Position numbers and translations under genes: made by a program. Shown here piece by piece: positions 17,243-31,101 of a stretch of DNA of 64,000 nucleotides; within the stretch, counting starts at the first letter, position 1, and every line of letters starts with the position of its first letter. Where the stretch lies: the NCBI RefSeq assembly GCF_904061905.1, contig NZ_CAJFCI010000025.1, positions 19,969 to 83,968 on the forward strand, given 5' to 3'. The DNA is from Zestomonas carbonaria. Lineage in GTDB: Bacteria > Pseudomonadota > Gammaproteobacteria > Pseudomonadales > Pseudomonadaceae. The notes under the pieces were generated by a model. The model ran no database searches, was not told the DNA's origin, and saw nothing but the letters and a program-made list of their open reading frames with translations.

Positions 17243-18950
17243 ATTCTGAGCTGCCTGTACGGCAGTGAAGTCGCCCGGCGTGTGCTGCTCGCGCAGGATC
17301 TCTTTCTTAGCTGCCTATACGGCAGTGCAGGTAACGATTATGACGTCCGGATGGCTGTGACGTTTCTTAGCTGCCTATACGGCAGTGCAGGCCGTAATGC
17401 AGCAATACCCTGAAGGCCTTCCTTTCTTAGCTGCCTATACGGCAGTGCAGGAGAGCGAGGTCGATGATGTTTCCGTGGAGCATTTCTTAGCTGCCTATAC
17501 GGCAGTGCAGACCCGGGCCGACACGCTTGCAGCGCACGCCCTTTTCTTAGCTGCCTATACGGCAGTGCAGGGTATCACCATTCGTCAGCCTGACCCCGAC
17601 GATTTCTTAGCTGCCTATACGGCAGTGCAGGTGGCGAAAAAGGTCGTGGACCCTTTCACCAATTTCTTAGCTGCCTATACGGCAGTGCAGACCTCCTGAG
17701 CCCCGTTGGCATCGGTGAACGTTTTCTTAGCTGCCTATACGGCAGTGCAGCCGTAGAGGGTGTAAGGCATTGATTTTCCTCATTTCTTAGCTGCCTATAC
17801 GGCAGTGCAGGTGGCGAGGCGGAGTTGCGCCTCCATTTTCTTTTTCTTAGCTGCCTATACGGCAGTGCAGGAAGGTCGCTCCGCATCCGATTCACATGGA
17901 AATTTCTTAGCTGCCTATACGGCAGTGCAGAGCAGGCCGCCGGACTCGCTGAATTTGTCGAGTTTCTTAGCTGCCTATACGGCAGTGCAGATTCCAGCCT
18001 CTTTCCACCGACCTGTGGATCTTTTCTTAGCTGCCTATACGGCAGTGCAGGTACGGATTCTCTGCACTACCTGACCGCCTCTTTTCTTAGCTGCCTATAC
18101 GGCAGTGCAGCGCAGCAGAGTTCGCGGATGATATCGCGCGGTTTTCTTAGCTGCCTATACGGCAGTGCAGGGGATGGTTGCCCAGCGCCTGGCTGCCCGA
18201 CATTTCTTAGCTGCCTATACGGCAGTGCAGGTACAGGCTTGTGGAAGACGGACAGGCCTAAATTTCTTAGCTGCCTATACGGCAGTGCAGTCCTCGGCTG
18301 CCTGGCCGAGCTGGGCAGTAATTTTCTTAGCTGCCTATACGGCAGTGCAGATGACCACTATCACCGTACCGCGCGAGCTGCTTTTCTTAGCTGCCTATAC
18401 GGCAGTGCAGCTCGAAGACGAACCAGGTGCGGTCGGTCGGCATTTCTTAGCTGCCTATACGGCAGTGCAGTACAGTGGGGCAAGCTGTTCCAGGTCCTTG
18501 ACTTTCTTAGCTGCCTATACGGCAGTGCAGGGTTGACCTTGCTTGGCCGTGGGAGCCTCGCTTTTCTTAGCTGCCTATACGGCAGTGCAGATAGCTTTTA
18601 CCCGCCCCTGGCAACCCCTCATTTTCTTAGCTGCCTATACGGCAGTGCAGACGACCAAGGACGTCATGGAGTACCGGGAGAATTTCTTAGCTGCCTATAC
18701 GGCAGTGCAGCAGGCCCCGTTCTGCACCGGCTACAGCGTCACTTTCTTAGCTGCCTATACGGCAGTGCAGGCACGGATGATGTCCGCGTCGGCCACGTCG
18801 ATTTTCTTAGCTGCCTATACGGCAGTGCAGACCCTGATCGCCCTGGAGGGCCAGCAGGAAACTTTCTTAGCTGCCTATACGGCAGTGCAGATGCCGCCGA
18901 GGCCGGCGGGGGCGGTGGTGGATTTCTTAGCTGCCTATACGGCAGTGCAG
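17243..18950 (-). CRISPR. Type I-F CRISPR array 1, 29 repeats and 28 spacers
   Basis: Twenty-eight identical 28-bp repeats start every 60 bp from 17303 to 18923, with all spacers exactly 32 bp. A degenerate terminal repeat lies at 17243-17270. On the minus strand the repeat begins CTGCACTGCCG, carries the stem CTGCC-GTATA-GGCAG and ends CTAAGAAA, the type I-F 5' handle. The terminal repeat at low coordinates and the leader at 18951-19080 show transcription toward lower coordinates, away from csy4. Uniform repeats suggest recent or continuing activity. Reading the repeats as protein (FLAAYTAVQ) is an artefact. Confidence 0.99.
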
Positions 18951-19080: not shown

Positions 19081-19644
19081 TCAGAACCAGGGAATCGTGG
19101 TGGTGGCGCTCAGACCGTAGTTACCAAACTGGCCAGGACTGGGAGCGTCAAGCAATGGGCCATGGCGGATGAACAGTCGGAAGTTGTGGCCATTACCGTT
19201 GCTGCGCAGGGTGACGAACGGAAGATCGCAGCGTTTGGCAGCGCTGTCGGGGATGCGTCTGCGGGCCTCTTCCTCACTGATGCCATGGCGCTTTATCAGC
19301 CGTCGACGAGCGCGGTCCGGGTTGCTGTCCACCTGCACCCGACTGACGCATCGCCAGGCCACCTGGTCGGGTATCGGCGCCAGATCGCCGAGCTGCACAT
19401 GGTCGCGCATGCCACTCAGCCAGTTCAGCGCCAGCAGACGGTCCAGGGCTTCGGCACTGCCATGCAGGCGCAGACGCCCACCCAGGCCATGGCTGGCGTT
19501 TTCCACGTCCGGGAAGCTGATGCCTATGTCGTGACGTCCCAGTTGCCCCAAACCCCGGTGCAGCTTGGCGAACAGTGCGCCCATCAGTTGTGTGGCGGGG
19601 AATTCAGGGTCGGGCCGCAGCCACAAGTCGAGGTAGTGGTCCAT
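19081..19644 (-). CDS. csy4: Csy4 (Cas6f) crRNA-processing endoribonuclease
   Basis: 187 residues, the same length as the well-studied P. aeruginosa enzyme. Catalytic His29 and Ser148 fall at exactly those positions, with Phe155 and the arginine-rich helix (about 111-119) and Arg102/Gln104 also present. It cuts pre-crRNA on the 3' side of the repeat stem, leaving an 8-nt handle, and stays bound. It is the last gene of the csy1-2-3-4 unit, 2 nt after csy3, with AGGAG before the ATG. Confidence 0.98.
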   Translation of the reverse strand: MDHYLDLWLRPDPEFPATQLMGALFAKLHRGLGQLGRHDIGISFPDVENASHGLGGRLRLHGSAEALDRLLALNWLSGMRDHVQLGDLAPIPDQVAWRCVSRVQVDSNPDRARRRLIKRHGISEEEARRRIPDSAAKRCDLPFVTLRSNGNGHNFRLFIRHGPLLDAPSPGQFGNYGLSATTTIPWF

Positions 19645-19646
19645 GG

Positions 19647-20678
19647 CTATTTCTCCTCGGCGGCACCGAACACGCCACCTCGGATCAGGTTGGCGATCAC
19701 GTAGTGCTGCTGCTCGACGGGCGGCGTTTCATCCTTGAGCACCCAGTTGTCCAGCAGCGTGTAGAAATCCATCTTGTCCTTGGGCTGACGGTAGGCCTTG
19801 CCCTGGGAGGTGACCGAGCCGTAGGGCTCCACGGCGATGGGGCCGAGGCCGTCCTCGTCGGGGTACCAGGTGTCGATGGTGCGCAGGGCGTTGCCGAGCT
19901 TCTGCGAGTGGATGGCCGCGACACCGCGCACGTGGTAGAGCGTCTTGCTCTTCTGGCCCTTCTTGTCACCTTTGTCGAGGATCAGCTCCTGGGAGGGGAA
20001 GACTTCCTGGCCGTCGCCAATACGCACGAAGGCAACCACTTCCAGCAATACATGGCCTTTGCCGGCCAACCCTTCGGCGATCAGGGCACCGAGCGCATCG
20101 ATGCCCTTGTCGCTGGAAAACTCGCGCAACGACAAGGCCAGACTGTCGAACATCCAGCTCTGTACCGCTTCGCCGTTACGCAGGTGGTTGATGCGTACCT
20201 CGATACGCTCCGCGCCGACCCGGTTGCGCCAGAGGAAACGGCCATTGGCCAGGTTGGAGGCATAGCGCTTGCCCAGCTCGGCGAAGCCCTGGGACTCCAC
20301 ATATTGGCCGACGGTGGCCAGCAGCTTGCCCTGATAGGCGGCGTCGTTGCAGGCCGAAGGCGTTCCGGCGCCGCCGAGCACGCGCAGGGTGAAGCGCACC
20401 TTGAGAGTGTCGGCGTCGCTGGGCAGGTTGGCCACGTCGACGGTCTGCAGGTTGGGCGCCTGGATAGAGGCATCCAGCTTGGCCGGGTCGCGATCCTTGG
20501 TCTTCAGTCGGTTGGAGATGGTGCCGCGTACCGATTTGGTTTCTACGGCGATCGGCTGCCAGGACGCGGGCTTGTCGAGATCGGCCCACTTGCCGGAAAA
20601 CAGCAACGCGTCGGAAGGGTCGAGCTTGCGCTCGAAAGCGAGTACGGAGGCGGTGGTCAGTTCGGTGTTCTTGGCCAT
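19647..20678 (-). CDS. csy3: Csy3 (Cas7f) Csy-complex backbone protein
   Basis: 343 residues, full-length Cas7f. Six copies form the helical backbone of the type I-F surveillance complex, each covering six crRNA nucleotides and flipping out every sixth base. That periodicity matters for interpreting the 26-nt mini-CRISPR spacer near csy1. It lies 12 nt downstream of csy2 and 2 nt upstream of csy4. Confidence 0.97.
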
Positions 20679-20690
20679 GTTCGTATGTCC

Positions 20691-21641
20691 TTATGCAATG
20701 GAGTCTGTGGCGAGAAAAGGCGTGGTGCAGCGATACAGGCCAGCATCGGGCTCGGCCTGGTGGTACCAGAGCAGCTCTCGGATATCGGAGAAGCGATGCG
20801 GGCTGCGCCATTCGCCAAGGCTGTAGAGGCTTTCGACGAAGTGGAACGGCGTCGTGCGGTCTCGGGCGTTGCGTACGCTGCCGGGCGCATGGGCCGATAG
20901 CGATCGATAGCCGACCGGAATCGGCACCAGCCAGCCAGCCCTGTGGCGAATGTGCCAGCCGATGTCTTCGCCGGGCGGGTCGACATTCAGTCGCGACAGG
21001 TCGAGCAGCGCGTCCAGCTCGTCAAGGCCGGCATCGCATTCGCGCAACGCGGCGGTGTGGCTGGCCAGCAGATCCTGCCTCGGGATCAGGGCGAAGCCCG
21101 GCAACAGGCACGCAGCCAGCTTGCGGCTCAGGTGATGTTCAGCATCCGCCGTACCTGGCCAGAGCTCCAGGCGTGGTCTGTTGCACCCATTCAGTGCCCA
21201 GGTCGGCGGCAAGACACTGCCACCCGCCAGGCGCATACCGCAGGCCAGGTCCCAGGCATGCTCGGCGATGGTCTGCAGGTCTTCTCCACTGTACAGCGCG
21301 CTACCGTGGACACCGACCAACAGACTGATATCCAGATGGATGCGGCCCTCTTCGACGATGGCGGCGGTGGCGCCGTCCTTGCCCACCGGGTTGCGGGTCA
21401 GGTTGAACACCCGCGTACGCTTGCCGGCCGGCTGCGAAGTCTGAGCCTCGAAGCGATGGCAGACGATGGCCACACCATCCAGATTGATATCCATCTCCTC
21501 GCCCAGCTTGCGTTGCAGTGCGTGGACGAAACCGGTGAAGGCCGTCACCGCCGGGAAGCCCCAGCTCAGCGGGCCGGAGATGGCGTTGGCATTCTGCACG
21601 CGCAGGCGCGGCAGCAGGAGCAGGGCTTCAGGCGCGTGCAT
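20691..21641 (-). CDS. csy2: Csy2 (Cas5f) Csy-complex tail subunit
   Basis: 316 residues, Cas5f family. With Csy1 it forms the tail that binds the 5' handle of the crRNA and takes part in recognising the CC PAM. It overlaps the end of csy1 by 14 bp, consistent with coupled translation. No truncation is visible. Confidence 0.97.
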   Translation of the reverse strand: MHAPEALLLLPRLRVQNANAISGPLSWGFPAVTAFTGFVHALQRKLGEEMDINLDGVAIVCHRFEAQTSQPAGKRTRVFNLTRNPVGKDGATAAIVEEGRIHLDISLLVGVHGSALYSGEDLQTIAEHAWDLACGMRLAGGSVLPPTWALNGCNRPRLELWPGTADAEHHLSRKLAACLLPGFALIPRQDLLASHTAALRECDAGLDELDALLDLSRLNVDPPGEDIGWHIRHRAGWLVPIPVGYRSLSAHAPGSVRNARDRTTPFHFVESLYSLGEWRSPHRFSDIRELLWYHQAEPDAGLYRCTTPFLATDSIA

Positions 21642-22947
21642 CTTCGAGCACCTCCTTGAACATCTTCAGTTCGTCGCGCAGCACGCCGTGCCAATGGTCG
21701 GCCTCGACTTCGCTCAGGCGCAGCTTGTCGTGATCGAGGACACGATTGAGCCAGTTGCCGAAGCGCCGGCTGGCCTGCTCCGGCCAGTCGCGCCACAAGT
21801 GCGTGCTCTTGAAAGAGTCGTCGTGCAACGTTCGTAGCGGATCGAGCCAATGCCTTTCGCTGTCGTCCAGCCGGCAGTCGGCATGCGCGCTCCAGCCGGC
21901 GGCCAGTTCACGGCTGCGGTTGGCGTCGAGCAAACGCGCGGCGTACTGGTGAAACTCATCGGCGATATCGCCCAGCAGGCGTGCGCGCTTGCGGCGGATG
22001 GCCCAGTTGTTGTGGTCGGTGGTCACCAGGAAATGCTTCAGCTCCGCCACCCTGTTACGCAGATCGCGGTTCTGGCGGAACAGGAAGTCGAAAACGGAGT
22101 CGCTGCGCAGCGGCGAGCGTAGCTCGAGGTTTTGCCACTGCGGCGGCAGGGCGGCCAGCAGCCAGTTCTCGCCATAGCGCTCACTGTTGAGCTGGCTGAT
22201 GTTCTGCGGCTTGGTACCACCGAATTTCTGGATGGCCAGGTTCGGGTATTCGCAATAGCCCTGGGAGAATGGTTCACCCTTGCGCCGGGCCTCGCGTGCA
22301 ATCCTGGCCAGCTCGCCATAACGATCATCGCGCATTCGAGCCTGCACCCTATGCGCCAGGCTGGTGGGGAACAGCGGCGCCAGCAGGTGATAGCCGCCAT
22401 CGGGCAGGGGGAAATACACCTGCTTGGCCAGGGTATGGGATGCTGGCGCGCCCCGACTCGTGGTGATTGTTGCGAAAGCAGCGCGCCATTGAGCGGCCAC
22501 CTCGGTATCGTCGTCCAGCGCCGCGAGAGCCGCCGGGTCGTGCTCCAGCAAACGTTGCAGCAGCGTCTGACCCGCATGCTCCAGCTTGAGAAGCTTGAAC
22601 ACGTCCAGAGCGGCGGCATTGCCCACCACATCGTCGTCCCAACGTTCACCCAGGCAATGGCTGGAGACCAGACCAGGCAGCTCCTGCGGCTGGGGAGGCG
22701 CATGCAGGTTGCTACCGCGGGCATCGGGATGGATGGGTTTGAGGGTATGGGTGGCGAGCTGGATCTGCCCGACCCGCCGCGCCGCATCGGCCAGCCAGTT
22801 GTGTGGCCGATGGTCGTCGATCAGTTGCTGGCGCTTGTCGTGCTCGTCGGGCTTGAGCTTGTCCAGCTTGGTTTGCAGGCGGGAGTGGATGAAGGTGTGG
22901 ATCAGGTCGCGCAGTGATGCTGCGTCCTCTGATAGCGCAATCGCCAT
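21628..22947 (-). CDS. csy1: Csy1 (Cas8f) large subunit of the Csy complex
   Basis: About 439 residues from MAIALSEDAAS. This start is chosen because a strong AGGAGG sits 4-5 nt before it; a longer frame up to 23058 would run through the promoter. Cas8f recognises the PAM, anchors the crRNA 5' handle and recruits Cas2/3. It is the first gene of the csy operon. The 5' region carries a -35/-10 pair at 23053-23024 that overlaps a sequence complementary in register to the mini-CRISPR spacer, suggesting autorepression. Confidence 0.96.
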   Translation of the reverse strand: MAIALSEDAASLRDLIHTFIHSRLQTKLDKLKPDEHDKRQQLIDDHRPHNWLADAARRVGQIQLATHTLKPIHPDARGSNLHAPPQPQELPGLVSSHCLGERWDDDVVGNAAALDVFKLLKLEHAGQTLLQRLLEHDPAALAALDDDTEVAAQWRAAFATITTSRGAPASHTLAKQVYFPLPDGGYHLLAPLFPTSLAHRVQARMRDDRYGELARIAREARRKGEPFSQGYCEYPNLAIQKFGGTKPQNISQLNSERYGENWLLAALPPQWQNLELRSPLRSDSVFDFLFRQNRDLRNRVAELKHFLVTTDHNNWAIRRKRARLLGDIADEFHQYAARLLDANRSRELAAGWSAHADCRLDDSERHWLDPLRTLHDDSFKSTHLWRDWPEQASRRFGNWLNRVLDHDKLRLSEVEADHWHGVLRDELKMFKEVLEDARA

Positions 22948-23023
22948 AAAACCTCCTGTAGGGCGAAAAGATCGTGATGCCAGAGTGATGGCAAGGCATA
23001 AGCTTTTGAGCATAGACGTAACT

Positions 23024-23053
23024 TTTATAGCTCTCAAAAACTGAAAAGTACAA
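23024..23053 (-). promoter_or_regulatory. Predicted csy operon promoter
   Basis: On the minus strand TTGTAC (23053-23048) and TATAAA (23029-23024) are separated by 18 bp, a good sigma-70 arrangement. Transcription would start near 23017, giving an untranslated leader of about 70 nt before csy1. Confidence 0.6.
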
Positions 23054-23062
23054 AGCACTAGG
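23035..23062 (-). promoter_or_regulatory. Protospacer-like site for the mini-CRISPR guide, overlapping the csy promoter
   Basis: Read on the minus strand, CC (23062-23061) is followed by TAGTGCTTTGTACTTTTCAG. Against the mini-CRISPR spacer (23155-23180) positions 1-5, 7-10, 13-16, 19, 20, 22 and 25 match, 17 of 26. Four of the nine mismatches (6, 12, 18, 24) are the bases flipped out in type I-F hybrids. The predicted -35 box is protospacer positions 8-13. A good PAM and seed with weak distal pairing predicts binding without Cas2/3 cleavage. Confidence 0.65.
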
Positions 23063-23126
23063 ATTAATTAAGAAACCTTGCTAATCGCTTTTTTTTCTGC
23101 CTTCCTTTGGCAGGTACCGAGTCACC

Positions 23127-23208
23127 TTTGACTGCCGTGCAGGCAGCTCAGAAATAGTGATTTGCTCTTTAGAGCTCATTCTTCACTGCCGTGCAGGCAG
23201 CCCTCGAG
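23127..23208 (+). CRISPR. Miniature CRISPR: two degenerate repeats, one 26-nt spacer
   Basis: Repeat-like units lie at 23127-23154 and 23181-23208. Both keep the Csy4 stem as CTGCC-GTGCA-GGCAG, differing from both arrays by the same two loop bases. Unit 1 ends CTCAGAAA, one base off the standard handle; unit 2 begins CTTCACTGCCGT like array 2 but loses the 3' handle. Csy4 cleavage would release a guide of about 54 nt. The spacer is 26 nt, exactly one Csy3 step (6 nt) shorter than array spacers. It reads toward fic, whose start codon is 18 bp beyond unit 2. Confidence 0.85.
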
Positions 23209-23226: not shown

Positions 23227-24309
23227 ATGGACTATTCGCCGCCGCAACTACCCCTTTCCGAGGACGTGGAAACCCGCGCAGTGCTGAAAAAACTAGCCCG
23301 TGCTCACCAGGCGCTGGCCGAGCTGAAAGGCGTGGTGGACAGCGTGCCGAACCAGCACATCCTGATCAACACTCTGGCGCTACAGGAAGCCAAAGACAGC
23401 TCCGCCATCGAAAACATCATTACCACCCATGACGACCTCTACCGCAGCGACAGTGTCGCCCGGCACTTCGTCAGTGTCGCAGCCAAGGAGGTACACAACT
23501 ATGCCGGAGCTCTGAAAGACGGCTTCGATCAGGTCAAGCGCACAGGCCTGCTGACCAATGCAGACATTCTGCGCATCCAGGCCACCATTGAGGAAAACGA
23601 CGCGGGGTTTCGGCGTCTTCCCGGAACGCAGCTCAAGAACCAGCAAACCGGTGAGGTCGTATACATTCCGCCTCAGCATCCTGACCAAATCATTGCACTG
23701 ATGGACAACCTGGAGCGTTTCATCAACGACGACACGCTCTGCGACTGGGACCCCTTGGTACGCATGGCGGTGATCCACCACCAGTTTGAGAGCATCCATC
23801 CCTTCTACGATGGTAACGGTCGTACTGGTCGCATCGTCAACGTGCTGTATCTGGTGCAGAAAAATCTGCTGGGTAGCCCCGTACTGTACCTGTCGCGCTA
23901 CATCAACCAGCACAAGGCCGATTACTACGTGCAACTCCAGGCCGTTCGGGAGCAAGGAAAGTGGGAACCCTGGCTCTTGTTCATGCTTGAGGCGGTCGAG
24001 CAGACGGCACTGCAGACGATCCGACTGGTATACGGCATCAAGGAACTGATGCAGGACTACAAGGACTGGTTGCGCACAGAACGACCCAAGCTCTACAGCC
24101 AGGAACTGCTCAACAACCTGTTCTGGCACCCTTACACCAAGGTGGAGTTCGTACAGAACGAGCTGGGTGTCAGCCGTCCAACGGCAACGAAATACCTCGA
24201 CGAGCTGGTCGCCCTGAAGCTCCTAAGCAAGCATCGGGTCGGCAAGGAGAATTTCTTTCTCAACGATGCGCTGTTCGACCTACTGTCAAATGCAGCCAGC
24301 TACGAGTAA
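23227..24309 (+). CDS. Class II Fic-domain protein with C-terminal winged helix, inside the cas locus
   Basis: 360 residues. HPFYDGNGRTGR (191-202) is a complete Fic active site, so AMP transfer or a related reaction is expected. SSAIEN (58-63) is the N-terminal inhibitory motif of class II Fic proteins, with Glu62 the blocking residue. A winged helix (about 305-350, SRPTATKYLDELVALKLL) follows. AGGA precedes ATG 23227. The gene is the only one in the locus on the plus strand, splitting cas2/3 from csy1, and the mini-CRISPR lies in its 5' region. No separate antitoxin is visible. It could be a guard toxin, a regulator or a passenger. Confidence 0.93.
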   Translation: MDYSPPQLPLSEDVETRAVLKKLARAHQALAELKGVVDSVPNQHILINTLALQEAKDSSAIENIITTHDDLYRSDSVARHFVSVAAKEVHNYAGALKDGFDQVKRTGLLTNADILRIQATIEENDAGFRRLPGTQLKNQQTGEVVYIPPQHPDQIIALMDNLERFINDDTLCDWDPLVRMAVIHHQFESIHPFYDGNGRTGRIVNVLYLVQKNLLGSPVLYLSRYINQHKADYYVQLQAVREQGKWEPWLLFMLEAVEQTALQTIRLVYGIKELMQDYKDWLRTERPKLYSQELLNNLFWHPYTKVEFVQNELGVSRPTATKYLDELVALKLLSKHRVGKENFFLNDALFDLLSNAASYE

Positions 24310-24433: not shown

Positions 24434-24505
24434 AATCCTCACGGTCATGAGGATTTCGCAATAGGCCAACCAGATCTTGTGGAAATCCTCACGACCGTAA
24501 GGATT
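24434..24505. repeat. Inverted pair of 22-bp palindromic elements between fic and cas2/3
   Basis: AATCCTCA-CGGTCA-TGAGGATT at 24434-24455 and a near-identical copy on the other strand at 24484-24505 (two substitutions), 50 bp apart. The second overlaps the cas2/3 stop codon by one base. They may serve as hairpin terminators for the converging fic and cas2/3 transcripts or as paired operator sites. Confidence 0.55.
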
Positions 24506-27500
24506 CAGCGCCGCCTCTTGAAGCCCAGCAACGGATGCCAGTCCCAGCCCTGGGTACTGTCACGCTCATCGAGCTGAACCTGGCCGAAGCGCTTGGCGCA
24601 GGCAGGCAACGACAGGTCGAAGCGTTCGGCCAGGATGGCCAACTCGTCCAGGTAGTCGCCAGCACCCCAGCTTTGCACTCGCGGACCCAATGCCAGGGAC
24701 AACTCACCCAGCAGGTTGCCGACGGCCGTCCACTCCCCGTCCCCGTTATCACGGTGGAACAGCAGGTACTCTTCATCGTCCACCGCTGGCAGCAGAGAGT
24801 AGGTCTGTTGCAAGGAACTCTTACGGAAACGCTGTTCGATCTGAAGGATGCCGGACAACGGAGCCAGGGTCTGCCACCAATGCGGCACGCCGAAGCGGGT
24901 GGCTGCGTTGCCCTCGCCGAGCATCAGCGCTCGCAAGCGGGCATGCTCCAGGTCGACAAGGCTGGTGGCGGGTTGCAGCGTTTCTCTGGCGACGATGCGT
25001 GGCGCGGCATCTATCGTCATCCATTCCTCCTCACGCAGCAGGTCGTGCAGATCGTGGCTCGCCAGGTGCCATTCCTTGCACTCGAAGCCGGGTTTCTCGA
25101 AGGCCACCGCCTGGCCTTGCAGAGCCCGGAGGTTACGCGCCAGCAGGTACAGGTTCGGCCCCGTGCAGGTGCCGGGCCGATGGCGACGAATGCGCCCGGC
25201 CAACTGGATGATCGAGCGCATCGACGAGGGTTCCACCACAGCCCAGTCGTAGTCATGGTCGCGCCCCACCTCGGCCACCGGAGAGGCGAGCACGACAAAC
25301 ACCTGGTCCGCTTCCGGGTGTTCGGCCAAGGCCGTGCGCACCAACGGGTGGTTGAACAACGCCTGCGGATCGTGGCGCCTGAGCAGACCATCCAGTTGTC
25401 GCTCGATGGCCGAGCGCAGGACCAGCGGATGGCGCGAGTGATAGACGCACAAGTGCAGGCGCGTACCTTCCGGCCCACCTTGGGCAAACAGTGCCTGGGC
25501 CAGCTCGATCAGCGGTTCGATATTGGCCAGGCGCAACAGACCGACGCTTATCCGCCGACCATCGGGTGCAGTCGAGTGGTGGGCCCGGTGCAATTGCAGC
25601 ATCCAGTCCGGCAGTTGCCCGGCCAACTCCTGGCAGATTGCCTGGCGGTCGCCGCCGGAAACCGCCAGCGGAACCAGACGGGCACGGCGACGGACGTCCT
25701 CTGTCGCCAGGTGACCCAGACGCCGACGGATGAACGCGTCATGGGCCGCGGCGAAGCCATCCGGCTCTCCATGCCGGCCCTCCTCACAGCCGAACTCGTC
25801 GAACCAGGCGCAGCGAATCTCCAGAGGTATACCTGGCTCACCGCGATTGGCCTGGAACAAGGCGCGCCCTGCCCGGTAAGCCTCGAACAATCCTTGCACC
25901 AGGGCCGGCGGCAAGGTGGCCGAGGAGAGCAGCACACGGCTGCCGAGCATGCCGGCCCAGTGCACCAGGCGGCTCAGGGCCGGCAGGTCGGCCAGGTCGA
26001 AGTCGTCCGGCTCGTCCAGCACCAGGTCGGAGGTCAGCAAGCGCAACATGGGGGCGATCTGCTTGCCGCCGCGCAGGCTTTCGGTGGCGGAGATCAAGTG
26101 GTCGAGGGTGCAGGCCAGTACCGGCGCAGTCACCAGCTTGTGCACAGCCGGATCGCGCTCCAGCCAGGCCTTCAGCGGGCCGTCCGCCAGGCCACTCTCG
26201 TAGTGAACGTGGCTGTCGTCCGGTAGCAGGGCTTCGCTGGATTCGCTGCCGCGCACCCGCTCCTGGCCCAGTTCGAATAACTGGCGCACGGCGCCGCCGC
26301 CTACCAGCACGGCCAGGTCGTCCTCGCCAAGGCCAAGCCGCTCACGGTAGGCCTGCCCGGTCTGCAAGGTCAAGGTACGCAGGCCTAGGGCAATGGTGAA
26401 ACGCGCGCCTTGCTGTGGATCGGCCAGGGCATAGAGGATGCGGCCGTTGGCCAGGGTCTTGCCGCAGCCGGTGGAGGCCAGGTTGATGCCGAAGAAACCT
26501 TGGCGTGCGGAGTGCTCACGCAGGCTGACCGCCAGGTCGAAGGCTTTGTCCTGCCAGCGGAAGCGCGGATCGTCGCTGCGTCGCTTGAAGCCTTTATGGC
26601 GGGCGATACGCGGCAGACTGCGCGACAGGCGCGGCAGGACACCCATCAATCGGCGGGACTCGCGGGCGACGCCAAGCAGGTGCTCGTCCAGACGCTGCTT
26701 GAGGCCCTCACGGTCGGTATTGGCATGGACGGGATAAGCCGGGTCGCCCAGCCTGGGGTTGGCATCCAGGCTGGAGTAATGGTGGTCGGCGAGCATCAGC
26801 ACCATGCGCGACAGGTGCATCACGTAGGGATCGGCGAGCAGACGCGGGGCGCGTTGCAACAGGCCGGGACGGGCCAGAAGGGCGGCGGCGCAGGTGGCCA
26901 CCTTGCGTCGCCAGGCTGCGCTGGCGAAAGGCAGGTGTCCCGGCGCGAAGGTCCAGCAGGCAGCCTGCTCGGCGCTGCCCGCATCACGTCGGGCGTCGTT
27001 CCAATCAGCAGTGATTGGTACAGGCAGATATTGCAGCCCCTGGGCATTGGTCCCTTCCATGATGGGCAGGCGGTGGTGACTGAGCACCAGCCAACCCACA
27101 GCCTGGGCCAAGGGCGGCAGACGGCCTTGCTTGAACGGTCCCGGCTGGCTCGGTCGGTCGTCGCGAACCAGTCGGGCCAGCCACTCGGTATCGGGGTTTT
27201 CTGCACCCTCCGCCAGGCGTTGCAACCAGTCGATATCGCCGTTGCCGACACCGACGAAAGCCTCGAACAGGCGCAGCGACACCCACTCGTGGCGGAAGGC
27301 GTCGCGGATCGGCCCCTCCCCCCGCAGTTTGGCCTGGAAGACGGCGTTGGCCTTGCCGATGTCGTGGAACAACGCCGCCATCTGCGCCAGCAGGCGGATG
27401 TCTTCGCCAGTGTGCCAATCGTTCTCGTCATCCCGGCGCAGCACATCGCGGCGGGTGGTGTTGGTGGGTACCGCGCCCTGCTCGTTGAAGCGGCTGGCGT

Positions 27501-27732
27501 CACCGACTATCCACAGCAGTTCACTGTGGTCACGACCGCGTATCCAGTGACAGGCCACCGCGGTGTTGCGCCGGGCGCTCTTCTTCAACAGCTTGCGCAG
27601 GCTGTCCAGGCCGGCCTGGGTGATGGGCGTCTGCCAGGTGCGCTCGCCACGGCGCTCGGCGAACTGGTCGAGAATGCGCCGCGACTCCACCAGGGCTCGC
27701 TTGTCGCACTGGCTGATCAGCAGGACATTCAT
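24505..27732 (-). CDS. cas3: Cas2-Cas3 fusion nuclease-helicase, type I-F
   Basis: 1075 residues, the normal size. Residues 1-95 are a Cas2 domain; HD nuclease residues His123-Asp124 (LFHDIGKANA) come next; the helicase has STGCGKT near residue 420, LVLDEPDD as the DExD motif and SSAT. It unwinds and degrades DNA bound by the Csy complex and joins Cas1 for spacer acquisition. The start overlaps the cas1 stop by ATGA. No active-site change is visible, so the locus should be competent for interference. Confidence 0.97.
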   Translation of the reverse strand: MNVLLISQCDKRALVESRRILDQFAERRGERTWQTPITQAGLDSLRKLLKKSARRNTAVACHWIRGRDHSELLWIVGDASRFNEQGAVPTNTTRRDVLRRDDENDWHTGEDIRLLAQMAALFHDIGKANAVFQAKLRGEGPIRDAFRHEWVSLRLFEAFVGVGNGDIDWLQRLAEGAENPDTEWLARLVRDDRPSQPGPFKQGRLPPLAQAVGWLVLSHHRLPIMEGTNAQGLQYLPVPITADWNDARRDAGSAEQAACWTFAPGHLPFASAAWRRKVATCAAALLARPGLLQRAPRLLADPYVMHLSRMVLMLADHHYSSLDANPRLGDPAYPVHANTDREGLKQRLDEHLLGVARESRRLMGVLPRLSRSLPRIARHKGFKRRSDDPRFRWQDKAFDLAVSLREHSARQGFFGINLASTGCGKTLANGRILYALADPQQGARFTIALGLRTLTLQTGQAYRERLGLGEDDLAVLVGGGAVRQLFELGQERVRGSESSEALLPDDSHVHYESGLADGPLKAWLERDPAVHKLVTAPVLACTLDHLISATESLRGGKQIAPMLRLLTSDLVLDEPDDFDLADLPALSRLVHWAGMLGSRVLLSSATLPPALVQGLFEAYRAGRALFQANRGEPGIPLEIRCAWFDEFGCEEGRHGEPDGFAAAHDAFIRRRLGHLATEDVRRRARLVPLAVSGGDRQAICQELAGQLPDWMLQLHRAHHSTAPDGRRISVGLLRLANIEPLIELAQALFAQGGPEGTRLHLCVYHSRHPLVLRSAIERQLDGLLRRHDPQALFNHPLVRTALAEHPEADQVFVVLASPVAEVGRDHDYDWAVVEPSSMRSIIQLAGRIRRHRPGTCTGPNLYLLARNLRALQGQAVAFEKPGFECKEWHLASHDLHDLLREEEWMTIDAAPRIVARETLQPATSLVDLEHARLRALMLGEGNAATRFGVPHWWQTLAPLSGILQIEQRFRKSSLQQTYSLLPAVDDEEYLLFHRDNGDGEWTAVGNLLGELSLALGPRVQSWGAGDYLDELAILAERFDLSLPACAKRFGQVQLDERDSTQGWDWHPLLGFKRRR

Positions 27733-28903: not shown

Positions 28904-29711
28904 CTTCACTGCCGTATAGGCAGCTAAGAAAACATCGATACAGCAGGGTGGATGCCTGAGAAGCTTCACTGCCGTATAGGCAGCTAAGAAATTCGAGCGG
29001 ACGAGCGTCGCCAGATCAAACCCCTTCACTGCCGTATAGGCAGCTAAGAAAACACCGAATCCCCAGGCGGTCAGCCAGAGGATCTTCACTGCCGTATAGG
29101 CAGCTAAGAAATCGACGCTGTGGCCGAGCTGATTGGCAATGAACTTCACTGCCGTATAGGCAGCTAAGAAATCAGCAATGCCGAGCGTCAGCGCCGCTAC
29201 CGCCTTCACTGCCGTATAGGCAGCTAAGAAAAGGCCCGGCGGCATGAAGCCCTCGCCGCTGATCTTCACTGCCGTATAGGCAGCTAAGAAAAACGATCAA
29301 CTGGAGATGTGATGGCGACCAACCTTCACTGCCGTATAGGCAGCTAAGAAATCCCTGCGTCGACGGCCCAACTCACAGCGAGCCTTCACTGCCGTATAGG
29401 CAGCTAAGAAAACTAACTGGTAGCCCAACGCCCAGCAGGCATCCTTCACTGCCGTATAGGCAGCTAAGAAACGGCGATAGTGTCGGTGACGACTCCGGTC
29501 GCGCTTCACTGCCGTATAGGCAGCTAAGAAATTCTCGGTGGTCTTCTTAGACGTGCAGGTCTGCTTCACTGCCGTATAGGCAGCTAAGAAAGACCCGGTG
29601 CCGGTGCCCGGCTACAGCACCGTCTTCACTGCCATGTAGGCAGCTAAGAAAATCATCGAAGTTCATGCTGTAGGCGTTGTTGGCTTCACTGCCGCACAGG
29701 CAGCTCCTCTA
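28904..29711 (+). CRISPR. Type I-F CRISPR array 2, 14 repeats and 13 spacers
   Basis: Repeats of 28 bp start every 60 bp from 28904 to 29684, all spacers 32 bp. Twelve are identical and begin CTTCACTGCCG, differing from array 1 at the third base. The thirteenth (29624) has a changed loop (ATGTA). The fourteenth (29684-29711) is degenerate after the stem and lies over the end of the outer-membrane efflux gene. The array is read away from cas1. Confidence 0.99.
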
Positions 29712-31101
29712 CTTCCTGACGCCCAAGCCATTGCTCCGCCCGCCAACCGCCGCCCAGCGCCCGATACAGGCCGACGCTGGCTTGCAGGCGTTCGAGCTGG
29801 AGTTGTGCCGCTTCGTCCTGGGCAGCGTAGAGGGTGCGTTGGGCGTCGAGCAGGGTGAGCAGGGTTTCCGCGCCGGCGCGGTAGCGGGATTCGGCGAGGC
29901 GGAAGGCCAGTTCGGCCTGGGCCAGCGCTTCGCGCTGGGCGGCCAGTTTGGCGGCGCTGCCGGCCAGGGCGTTGAGTGCCGTTTCCACGTCGGCGAAGGC
30001 GGTGACGATGGCGCCACGGTAGTCGGCGAGCAATTCCTCGCGGCGGGCGATGGCGATGTCGCGGTCGGCGGCCAGGCGGCCGCCGTCGAAGATCGGTGCG
30101 GCGAGCGCCGCCGCCAGCGAGTAGACCGGATCGGCGAACACGCGCGACAGGCTGCCGCTGCCGCCACCGGCCCTGGCCGTCAGGTCGAGGCGCGGCAACA
30201 GGGCGGCGCGGGCGGCTTCGACGTCGGCATCGGCGGCGGCCAGGTTGGCTTCGGCACGGGCCAGGTCGGGACGGCGGCCGAGCAGTTCGCTGGGCAGCCC
30301 GGCGCCGAGGCTCGGCACCCGCAGGGCGTCCAGGTCGGCGGCGTGCATCCTCAGTTCGGTGACGCTTGCGCCAAGCAGCAAGGCCAGGGCGGTTCGGCTG
30401 TCTTCCAGTTGCTGGCCCAGGTCGGCGAGCAGGCGTCGCTGGGTGGCCACCACGCCGCGTTGCTGGGCCAGTTCGAGGGCAATGGCGGCACCGGCGCGCC
30501 AGCGTGCTTCGACGGTCGCCAGGACGCGTTCGGCGTTGGCCAGGTTGAGTTCGGCGATGCGCCGGCGTTCGCCGAGACCGACCGTCTGCAACCAGGTGTT
30601 CGCCACCCCGGCGCCGAGGGTGACGTGCAGGGCGTCGCGGTCGAAGCGGCTGGCGCGCAGGGCCAGTTCGGCGCTGTCGCGCCCGGCGCGCAGGCGACCC
30701 CACAGGTCGACTTCGTAGCTGGCCGCCAGGCCGCCTTCGTAGCGGTTGCCGGCGGTGTCGGCATCACCACCGAGACGGCCTGCTCGACTGGCGCCGAGGT
30801 TGCCGTCGAGCCTCGGCAGCAGCGGCGCGCCGGCCAGTCGCGCGCTGGCTTCGGCCTGGCGCACCCGAGCGACGGCGGCGGCCAGGTCGGGACTCTGCGC
30901 GAAAGACTGGGCGACCAGGCGGTCCAGCTCGTCGCTGCCGAAGGCTCGCCACCAGGTGGAGTCGATTTCCTGGGCGGGCAGGGCGTTGGCGTGGCGCCAC
31001 TGCGCCGGGGTTTCGGGCAGCTCGTCCGGCGCAGGCTGATGACGGGAGCAGGCGGCCAGGGCCAGGAGCAGCAGCAGGGGGAGTGCGGGTTTCATGGCCA
31101 T
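29686..31101 (-). CDS. Outer-membrane efflux lipoprotein, NodT/OprM family (OpmQ-like)
   Basis: About 471 residues. The signal peptide ends in a lipobox (LLALAAC), followed by two repeated OEP domains that form a TolC-like trimeric channel. ATG 31101 is used; ATG 31095 is equally possible. It follows MacA- and MacB-type genes on the same strand, so it should complete a tripartite exporter such as PvdRT-OpmQ, which recycles and secretes pyoverdine. Its last codons (ELPVRQ, stop) are the terminal repeat of CRISPR array 2. A palindromic repeat separates it from macB. Confidence 0.92.
   Translation of the reverse strand: MAMKPALPLLLLLALAACSRHQPAPDELPETPAQWRHANALPAQEIDSTWWRAFGSDELDRLVAQSFAQSPDLAAAVARVRQAEASARLAGAPLLPRLDGNLGASRAGRLGGDADTAGNRYEGGLAASYEVDLWGRLRAGRDSAELALRASRFDRDALHVTLGAGVANTWLQTVGLGERRRIAELNLANAERVLATVEARWRAGAAIALELAQQRGVVATQRRLLADLGQQLEDSRTALALLLGASVTELRMHAADLDALRVPSLGAGLPSELLGRRPDLARAEANLAAADADVEAARAALLPRLDLTARAGGGSGSLSRVFADPVYSLAAALAAPIFDGGRLAADRDIAIARREELLADYRGAIVTAFADVETALNALAGSAAKLAAQREALAQAELAFRLAESRYRAGAETLLTLLDAQRTLYAAQDEAAQLQLERLQASVGLYRALGGGWRAEQWLGRQEVEELPVRQ

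Follow-up and report, generated by a model that had tools for sequence, protein, structure and literature searches.

The type I-F CRISPR-Cas locus in the window (the whole 64-kb stretch of DNA analyzed here) carries a two-repeat mini-CRISPR with a single 26-nt spacer (psiR1-psiS-psiR2; 23127-23208, plus strand) between csy1 and cas2-3, and we think it quite likely that psiS RNA brings the Csy complex to the promoter predicted for csy1, repressing csy1-4 without cutting, as a type I-F autorepressor of the CreR kind. The unit, its match upstream of csy1, the uniqueness of that match in the genome, and the presence of a unit together with its own target at 25 loci, the window locus included, are established directly; transcription, processing, loading, binding, and repression by the guide are what we infer from these sequences. 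The locus runs in the order array 1, csy4-csy3-csy2-csy1 (minus strand), gap, fic (plus strand), cas2-3 and cas1 (minus strand), and array 2, with the following features:

17243..18950, minus strand (transcribed strand inferred from repeat orientation): CRISPR array 1, 60-nt units
19081-19644, minus strand: csy4 (Pfam)
19647-20678, minus strand: csy3 (Pfam)
20691-21641, minus strand: csy2 (Pfam)
21628..22947, minus strand: csy1 (Cas8f), first gene of the operon predicted to be repressed (Pfam Cas_Csy1)
23127-23154, plus strand: psiR1, decayed I-F repeat (Rfam CRISPR-DR4, 31.9 bits, E 2.1e-5)
23147-23154, plus strand: predicted 5' handle of the guide, the last 8 nt of psiR1, CTCAGAAA
23155-23180, plus strand: psiS, 26-nt spacer, the guide part of a predicted crRNA-like RNA
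23181-23208, plus strand: psiR2, decayed repeat (Rfam CRISPR-DR4, 22.6 bits, E 0.015)
23227..24309, plus strand: fic, SoFic-like (Pfam Fic_N, Fic, SoFic-like_C)
24505-27732, minus strand: cas2-3 (Pfam)
27729 to ~28790, minus strand: cas1 (Pfam)
28904..29712, plus strand (transcribed strand inferred): CRISPR array 2, 60-nt units

The intact 28-nt repeats and 32-nt spacers of arrays 1 and 2 are absent from the unit, in which the spacer is 26 nt and both repeats are decayed, scoring below the 35-bit cut-off of Rfam CRISPR-DR4. The psiR1 hairpin has a computed folding energy of -12.6 kcal/mol; psiR2 keeps its hairpin at 23186-23200 and shows erosion in the 8 nt beyond its predicted Csy4 cleavage site (CCCTCGAG). 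On average, 3.5 of the 8 post-cut letters of psiR2 are retained. Erosion of psiR2 thus appears to strike the part that a mature guide can dispense with and to spare the hairpin. The spacer itself contains a near-perfect palindrome, GCTCTTTAGAGC (23164-23175), which is predicted to fold as a hairpin in the free guide.

The spacer matches a site on the minus strand, 88 to 113 nt upstream of the csy1 ATG, which lies among two candidate csy1 promoters:

23035..23062, minus strand: target, a CC PAM (23062-23061) and a 26-nt protospacer (23060-23035), matching at 17/26 letters and 17/22 pairing positions
23009..23037, minus strand: better-scoring predicted csy1 promoter, TTGAGA (23037-23032), 17 nt, TATGCT (23014-23009), by consensus scan and a second scoring
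23024..23053, minus strand: promoter predicted in an earlier note on this DNA, TTGTAC (23053-23048), 18 nt, TATAAA (23029-23024), read from the sequence and ranked second

The earlier note had described CC at 23062-23061 followed by spacer matches at positions 1-5, 7-10, 13-16, 19, 20, 22, and 25, all of which were confirmed on the sequence by script; the mismatches fall at positions 6, 11, 12, 17, 18, 21, 23, 24, and 26, and a recount with positions 6, 12, 18, and 24 set aside gave the same 17/22 agreement as the note. This is the sole site in the 64-kb window where all seven seed letters (1-5, 7, and 8) stand beside CC, and the next best window sites of any kind, the spacer itself aside, reach 14/22. 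None of 2,000 shuffled guides attained the score over 1.5 kb upstream of csy1 (p=0.0005), and among Markov random guides of like composition 3 of 300,000 reached 17/22 when scored on the 13 CC sites within 22918-23126. Genome-wide (5,546,086 bases), the core pattern CCTAGTGNTTTGNNCTTT occurs exactly once, at the target; with 2 mismatches it is found at three places, one of which is the spacer itself. Two properties of the match count against the best reading: pairing also fails outside the sixth positions, at 11, 17, 21, 23, and 26, and the csy1-sense strand carries the protospacer, a minority layout found at 3 of the 25 loci.

For the promoter, the earlier note had proposed TTGTAC with TATAAA 18 bp on; the letters are present, but this -35 box agrees with just 3/6 of the consensus, and the scan picks TTGAGA-17-TATGCT instead. 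The predicted transcription start is near 23002 for the latter and near 23017 for TTGTAC-18-TATAAA. The target spans the whole TTGTAC -35 and overlaps the TTGAGA -35 by merely 3 nt, the latter overlap counting against the best reading. Promoter scores are predictions rather than proof of function, and an alignment of five csy1 leaders left the choice between the candidates unsettled. At four other loci (L062, L085, L112, and L064) a candidate -35 hexamer starting TTG stands next to the PAM, which reads GG on the csy1-sense strand; this geometry is unlike that of the window, and the hexamer is top-scoring in L062 and L085 and lower in L112 and L064.

To place the unit among its relatives, csy1-upstream DNA of 107 genomes was compared, one locus each, drawn from searches at genus, family, order, and class level plus one neighbouring genus; duplicate loci and G196, G169, G1186, G431, G959, and G1103 (weak, split, or unretrieved csy1 matches) were left out, and csy1 starts were assigned by script. 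Genome contigs searched with a single Csy1 sequence gave three relatives, Pseudomonas sp. MRCP1333, PDM16, and EpS/L25, and a DNA search with the gap sequence matched, beyond the window, 7/57 genomes, its own included, the others via repeats or 25-33-base matches. A detector for two CTGCC/GGCAG-like hairpins with a 10-40 nt spacer between the repeats, directed away from csy1 and with a handle on the first, found 26 units in the 107 loci. A CC-flanked match to the unit's own spacer lies within 1.5 kb in 25 of the 26 (each p<=0.0035 against 2,000 shuffles), these 25 loci being not fully independent because L103 and L113 are sister species. Guide and target letters vary from locus to locus, and when guides and targets were exchanged between loci under the same score, 1 of 600 pairs matched equally well, that one between sister species. 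L067 alone departs from this: its mini-CRISPR ahead of csy1 is clear, yet no CC-flanked match to its own spacer was found nearby. With the PAM requirement dropped and the search extended into csy1, the best other site reached 14/22, and the target of this unit may lie elsewhere.

Across all 25 guide-target pairs, no mismatch occurs at positions 1-5 or 13, and mismatches are frequent at positions 6 (20/25), 12 (20/25), 18 (19/22), and 24 (12/13). Positions 6, 12, and 18 together mismatch in 59/72 cases versus 28/375 at the rest of 1-17, a contrast that is partly built in, since the scoring ignored sixth positions, rewarded matches elsewhere, and broke ties on positions 1-5. Of the 25 spacers, 18 measure 6N-4 or 6N-5 nt, 8 of them precisely 6N-4. 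A both-strand pass over 75 loci saw co-directed units solely as mirror images (L021 and L052). A laxer pass over the remaining 81 loci added five candidates outside the 25, namely L057, L101, and L102, each with its own CC match at p<=0.002, and the weaker L061 (p=0.019) and L133 (p=0.03); 26 is therefore a minimum, and some candidates depart from the divergent layout. Two of these, L101 (p 0.001) and L102 (p 0.002), are co-directed with csy1 and have decayed CCGCC/GGCGG-type hairpins with a CC-flanked match nearby.

The earlier note's prediction of binding without cutting upstream of csy1 stands as the best reading, given that all but one of the 26 units have a target of their own and given the parallels in Aggregatibacter and Acinetobacter. 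Csy4 would likely release the guide, which would then be loaded in the manner of a crRNA, as a predicted RNA of ~54 nt (23147-23200) led by CUCAGAAA and ending near 23200; the guide-loaded Csy complex would then sit at the predicted csy1 promoter and lower csy1-4. Cas2-3 should not be engaged, because the spacer falls 6 nt below the usual length and distal pairing is poor. In the I-F1 system of Aggregatibacter, a spacer cut by 6 nt to 26 keeps Cascade binding and the R-loop without Cas2/3 degradation, with affinity dropping as spacers shorten; the same paper states 6N-4 as the spacer-length rule for I-F1 (PMC7296934). In an I-F3 complex, a flipped-out sixth position can be mismatched with no effect on binding (PMC12774636). 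In Acinetobacter, a similarly arranged I-F guide, CreA, acts on a promoter through partial pairing and represses it; it is described as having 12 essential positions (2-5, 7-9, and 13-17) and no canonical seed (PMC10097628). Eleven of those 12 positions are paired here, position 17 being unpaired (positions per PMC10097628), and binding without cutting is expected by analogy because of the 26-nt spacer, the poor distal match, and this pairing. Against the best reading stand the self-folding of the spacer, the weak TTGTAC -35, and L067 with no CC target.

If the guide is loaded in this way, crRNAs of arrays 1 and 2 would compete with it for Csy proteins and anti-CRISPRs would block Csy, so repression should ease under high crRNA demand or in the presence of a phage inhibitor. 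Relief of CreR by rival crRNAs and anti-CRISPRs is reported in other subtypes (PMC12737573), and the same would hold by analogy for the window locus. Because the unit directly precedes fic on the same strand, the guide and the Fic mRNA are probably one transcript.

The loci with targets fall into two classes by distance. In 11 of the 25, the window locus among them at 115 nt, the distance between PAM and predicted csy1 start is 11-127 nt, and the farther guide targets of the other 14 lie 220-534 nt from csy1. A Shine-Dalgarno-led mini-ORF with tandem AGA/AGG codons (creT-like) was found in 0 of the 11 csy1-proximal leaders, 6 of which hold other short frames, mostly weakly led; the window leader, from target to csy1, has no Shine-Dalgarno-led mini-ORF of any sort. 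Tandem AGA/AGG mini-ORFs led by a Shine-Dalgarno sequence occur at 7 of the 14 farther-target loci (L027, L035, L045, L052, L073, L076, and L078), a contrast between the classes that is descriptive only, because the farther-target leaders are longer. By sequence, the 11 csy1-proximal loci look like CreR, L062 (127 nt) and L096 (uncertain start) being the least sure, and several of the 14 farther-target loci are candidates for CreTA outside Acinetobacter, some of them in Pseudomonas.

These leaders bear on whether the window guide acts instead as an antitoxin by repressing a small toxin RNA between target and csy1, as in Acinetobacter. A like unit in a like gap is described there (PMC10097628), and the seven farther-target loci with mini-ORFs point the same way; at the window, however, no such mini-ORF was found in the leader, no tandem AGA/AGG one was found in the other 10 csy1-proximal loci, and, from whichever of the two predicted starts, only a short leader follows, running up to the Shine-Dalgarno sequence of csy1, so that we regard a CreTA module here as highly improbable. 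We give equally little credence to a degenerate immune-array remnant whose match is due to chance or vestigial and has no function: the decay of both repeats below the Rfam cut-off and the 9/26 mismatching letters would suit it, but the rarity of such a match by chance (3/300,000), the finding that 25 of the 26 units have targets of their own whose letters vary, and the decay of psiR2 that leaves its hairpin intact all argue against it.

The adjoining fic gene, on which the earlier note is silent, raises a further alternative, namely that the guide mainly controls fic, whose product would putatively act when Csy is blocked, with csy repression secondary or shared, in the manner of CrePA. The fic ATG lies 18 nt past psiR2 on the unit's strand, and at most 8 nt past it in Pseudomonas sp. 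EpS/L25, so that a unit directly before fic on the same strand is seen in two genera. The two loci have similar proteins (Csy1 74% and Fic 79% identical), and spacer, target letters, and target strand all differ; the layout has persisted, and guide and target have either changed in concert or been replaced, covariation being judged locus by locus because the two fic-linked gaps align poorly outside the hairpins. Control of fic is also favored by the best-scoring plus-strand promoter-like site, which overlaps the target, and by further toxin-antitoxin genes in the csy1 gap. On the other side, that site is weak, and the overlap of the top plus-strand promoter candidate with the target in 8 of the 11 csy1-proximal loci is a count without a chance baseline; fic follows just 2 of the 26 units, and another fic of the genus, 74% identical, has no unit before it. 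We consider mainly fic-directed control unlikely, if slightly less so than the two accounts above. The toxin-antitoxin genes seen in cas3-csy1 gaps encode a HipA N-terminal domain, HTH antitoxin-like proteins, a PIN toxin with a MazE-like antitoxin, and CcdA (L130, L026, L027, L043, L122, L123, L141, L067, and L073; five pieces Pfam-tested).

Autorepression of csy1-4 and a role for fic could also be joined in a combined switch, which we put forward only tentatively, as somewhat less far-fetched than mainly fic-directed control: one transcript would carry the CreR guide and Fic, Csy4 would trim the fic leader while freeing the guide, and loaded Csy between divergent promoters would hold down both csy1-4 and guide-fic. 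A Csy-blocking anti-CRISPR would then raise Csy production and free Fic together, placing autoregulation and an abortive-type response under one operator.

The abstract of the original CreR paper (Cell Host Microbe, 2023) reportedly names subtypes I-B, I-E, and V-A. In later reviews, CreR is a mini-CRISPR that partly matches its own cas operon promoter and gives autorepression (PMC13131331, PMC12737573, PMC12948488); it is reported for I-B, I-E, and V-A (PMC13131331) or, more loosely, for type I and V-A (PMC12737573), and is generally uncoupled from a toxin gene (PMC12737573). Two of its traits are found at the window: a mini-CRISPR of two repeat-like elements and one spacer near cas genes, and a partial match, CC plus 17/22, upstream of csy1 at its own, here predicted, cas promoter, with autorepression likewise predicted. 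The window differs in being type I-F rather than I-B, I-E, or V-A (the subtypes given in PMC13131331), in a target read with sixth positions free, and in a unit directly before fic; as to toxin coupling, its leader is without a creT-like mini-ORF, yet fic adjoins the unit. With Acinetobacter I-F CreTA it shares the subtype, the cas3-csy1 gap, the psiR1-psiS-psiR2 order, the CC PAM, and partial pairing, but the CreTA target controls a toxin RNA (PMC10097628), whereas in the window csy1 itself follows the target. With CrePA it shares a gene of a toxin-including family beside the guide; CreP typically has a KilA-N domain and stands under the target promoter (PMC12737573), whereas the window gene is Fic and lies downstream of the guide. 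No report of CreR in type I-F, or of a fic-linked guide, was recognised in the open-access literature searched. The CreR kind, which the earlier note does not bring up, is already known, and its type I-F occurrence and the adjacency to fic would be the new features.

If the proposed autorepression holds, RNA-guided control of Cas production would reach type I-F, against which many anti-CRISPRs are known, and type I-F hosts could answer an inhibitor with more Csy. The 25 natural guide-target pairs would also indicate which letters are kept for binding without cutting, with the PAM and positions 1-5 invariant, every sixth position free, and distal pairing loose. Since a like gap contains targets close to csy1 at some loci and creT-like modules at others, the step from regulator to addiction module would be open to study, and the fic linkage would be a new coupling that is amenable to testing.
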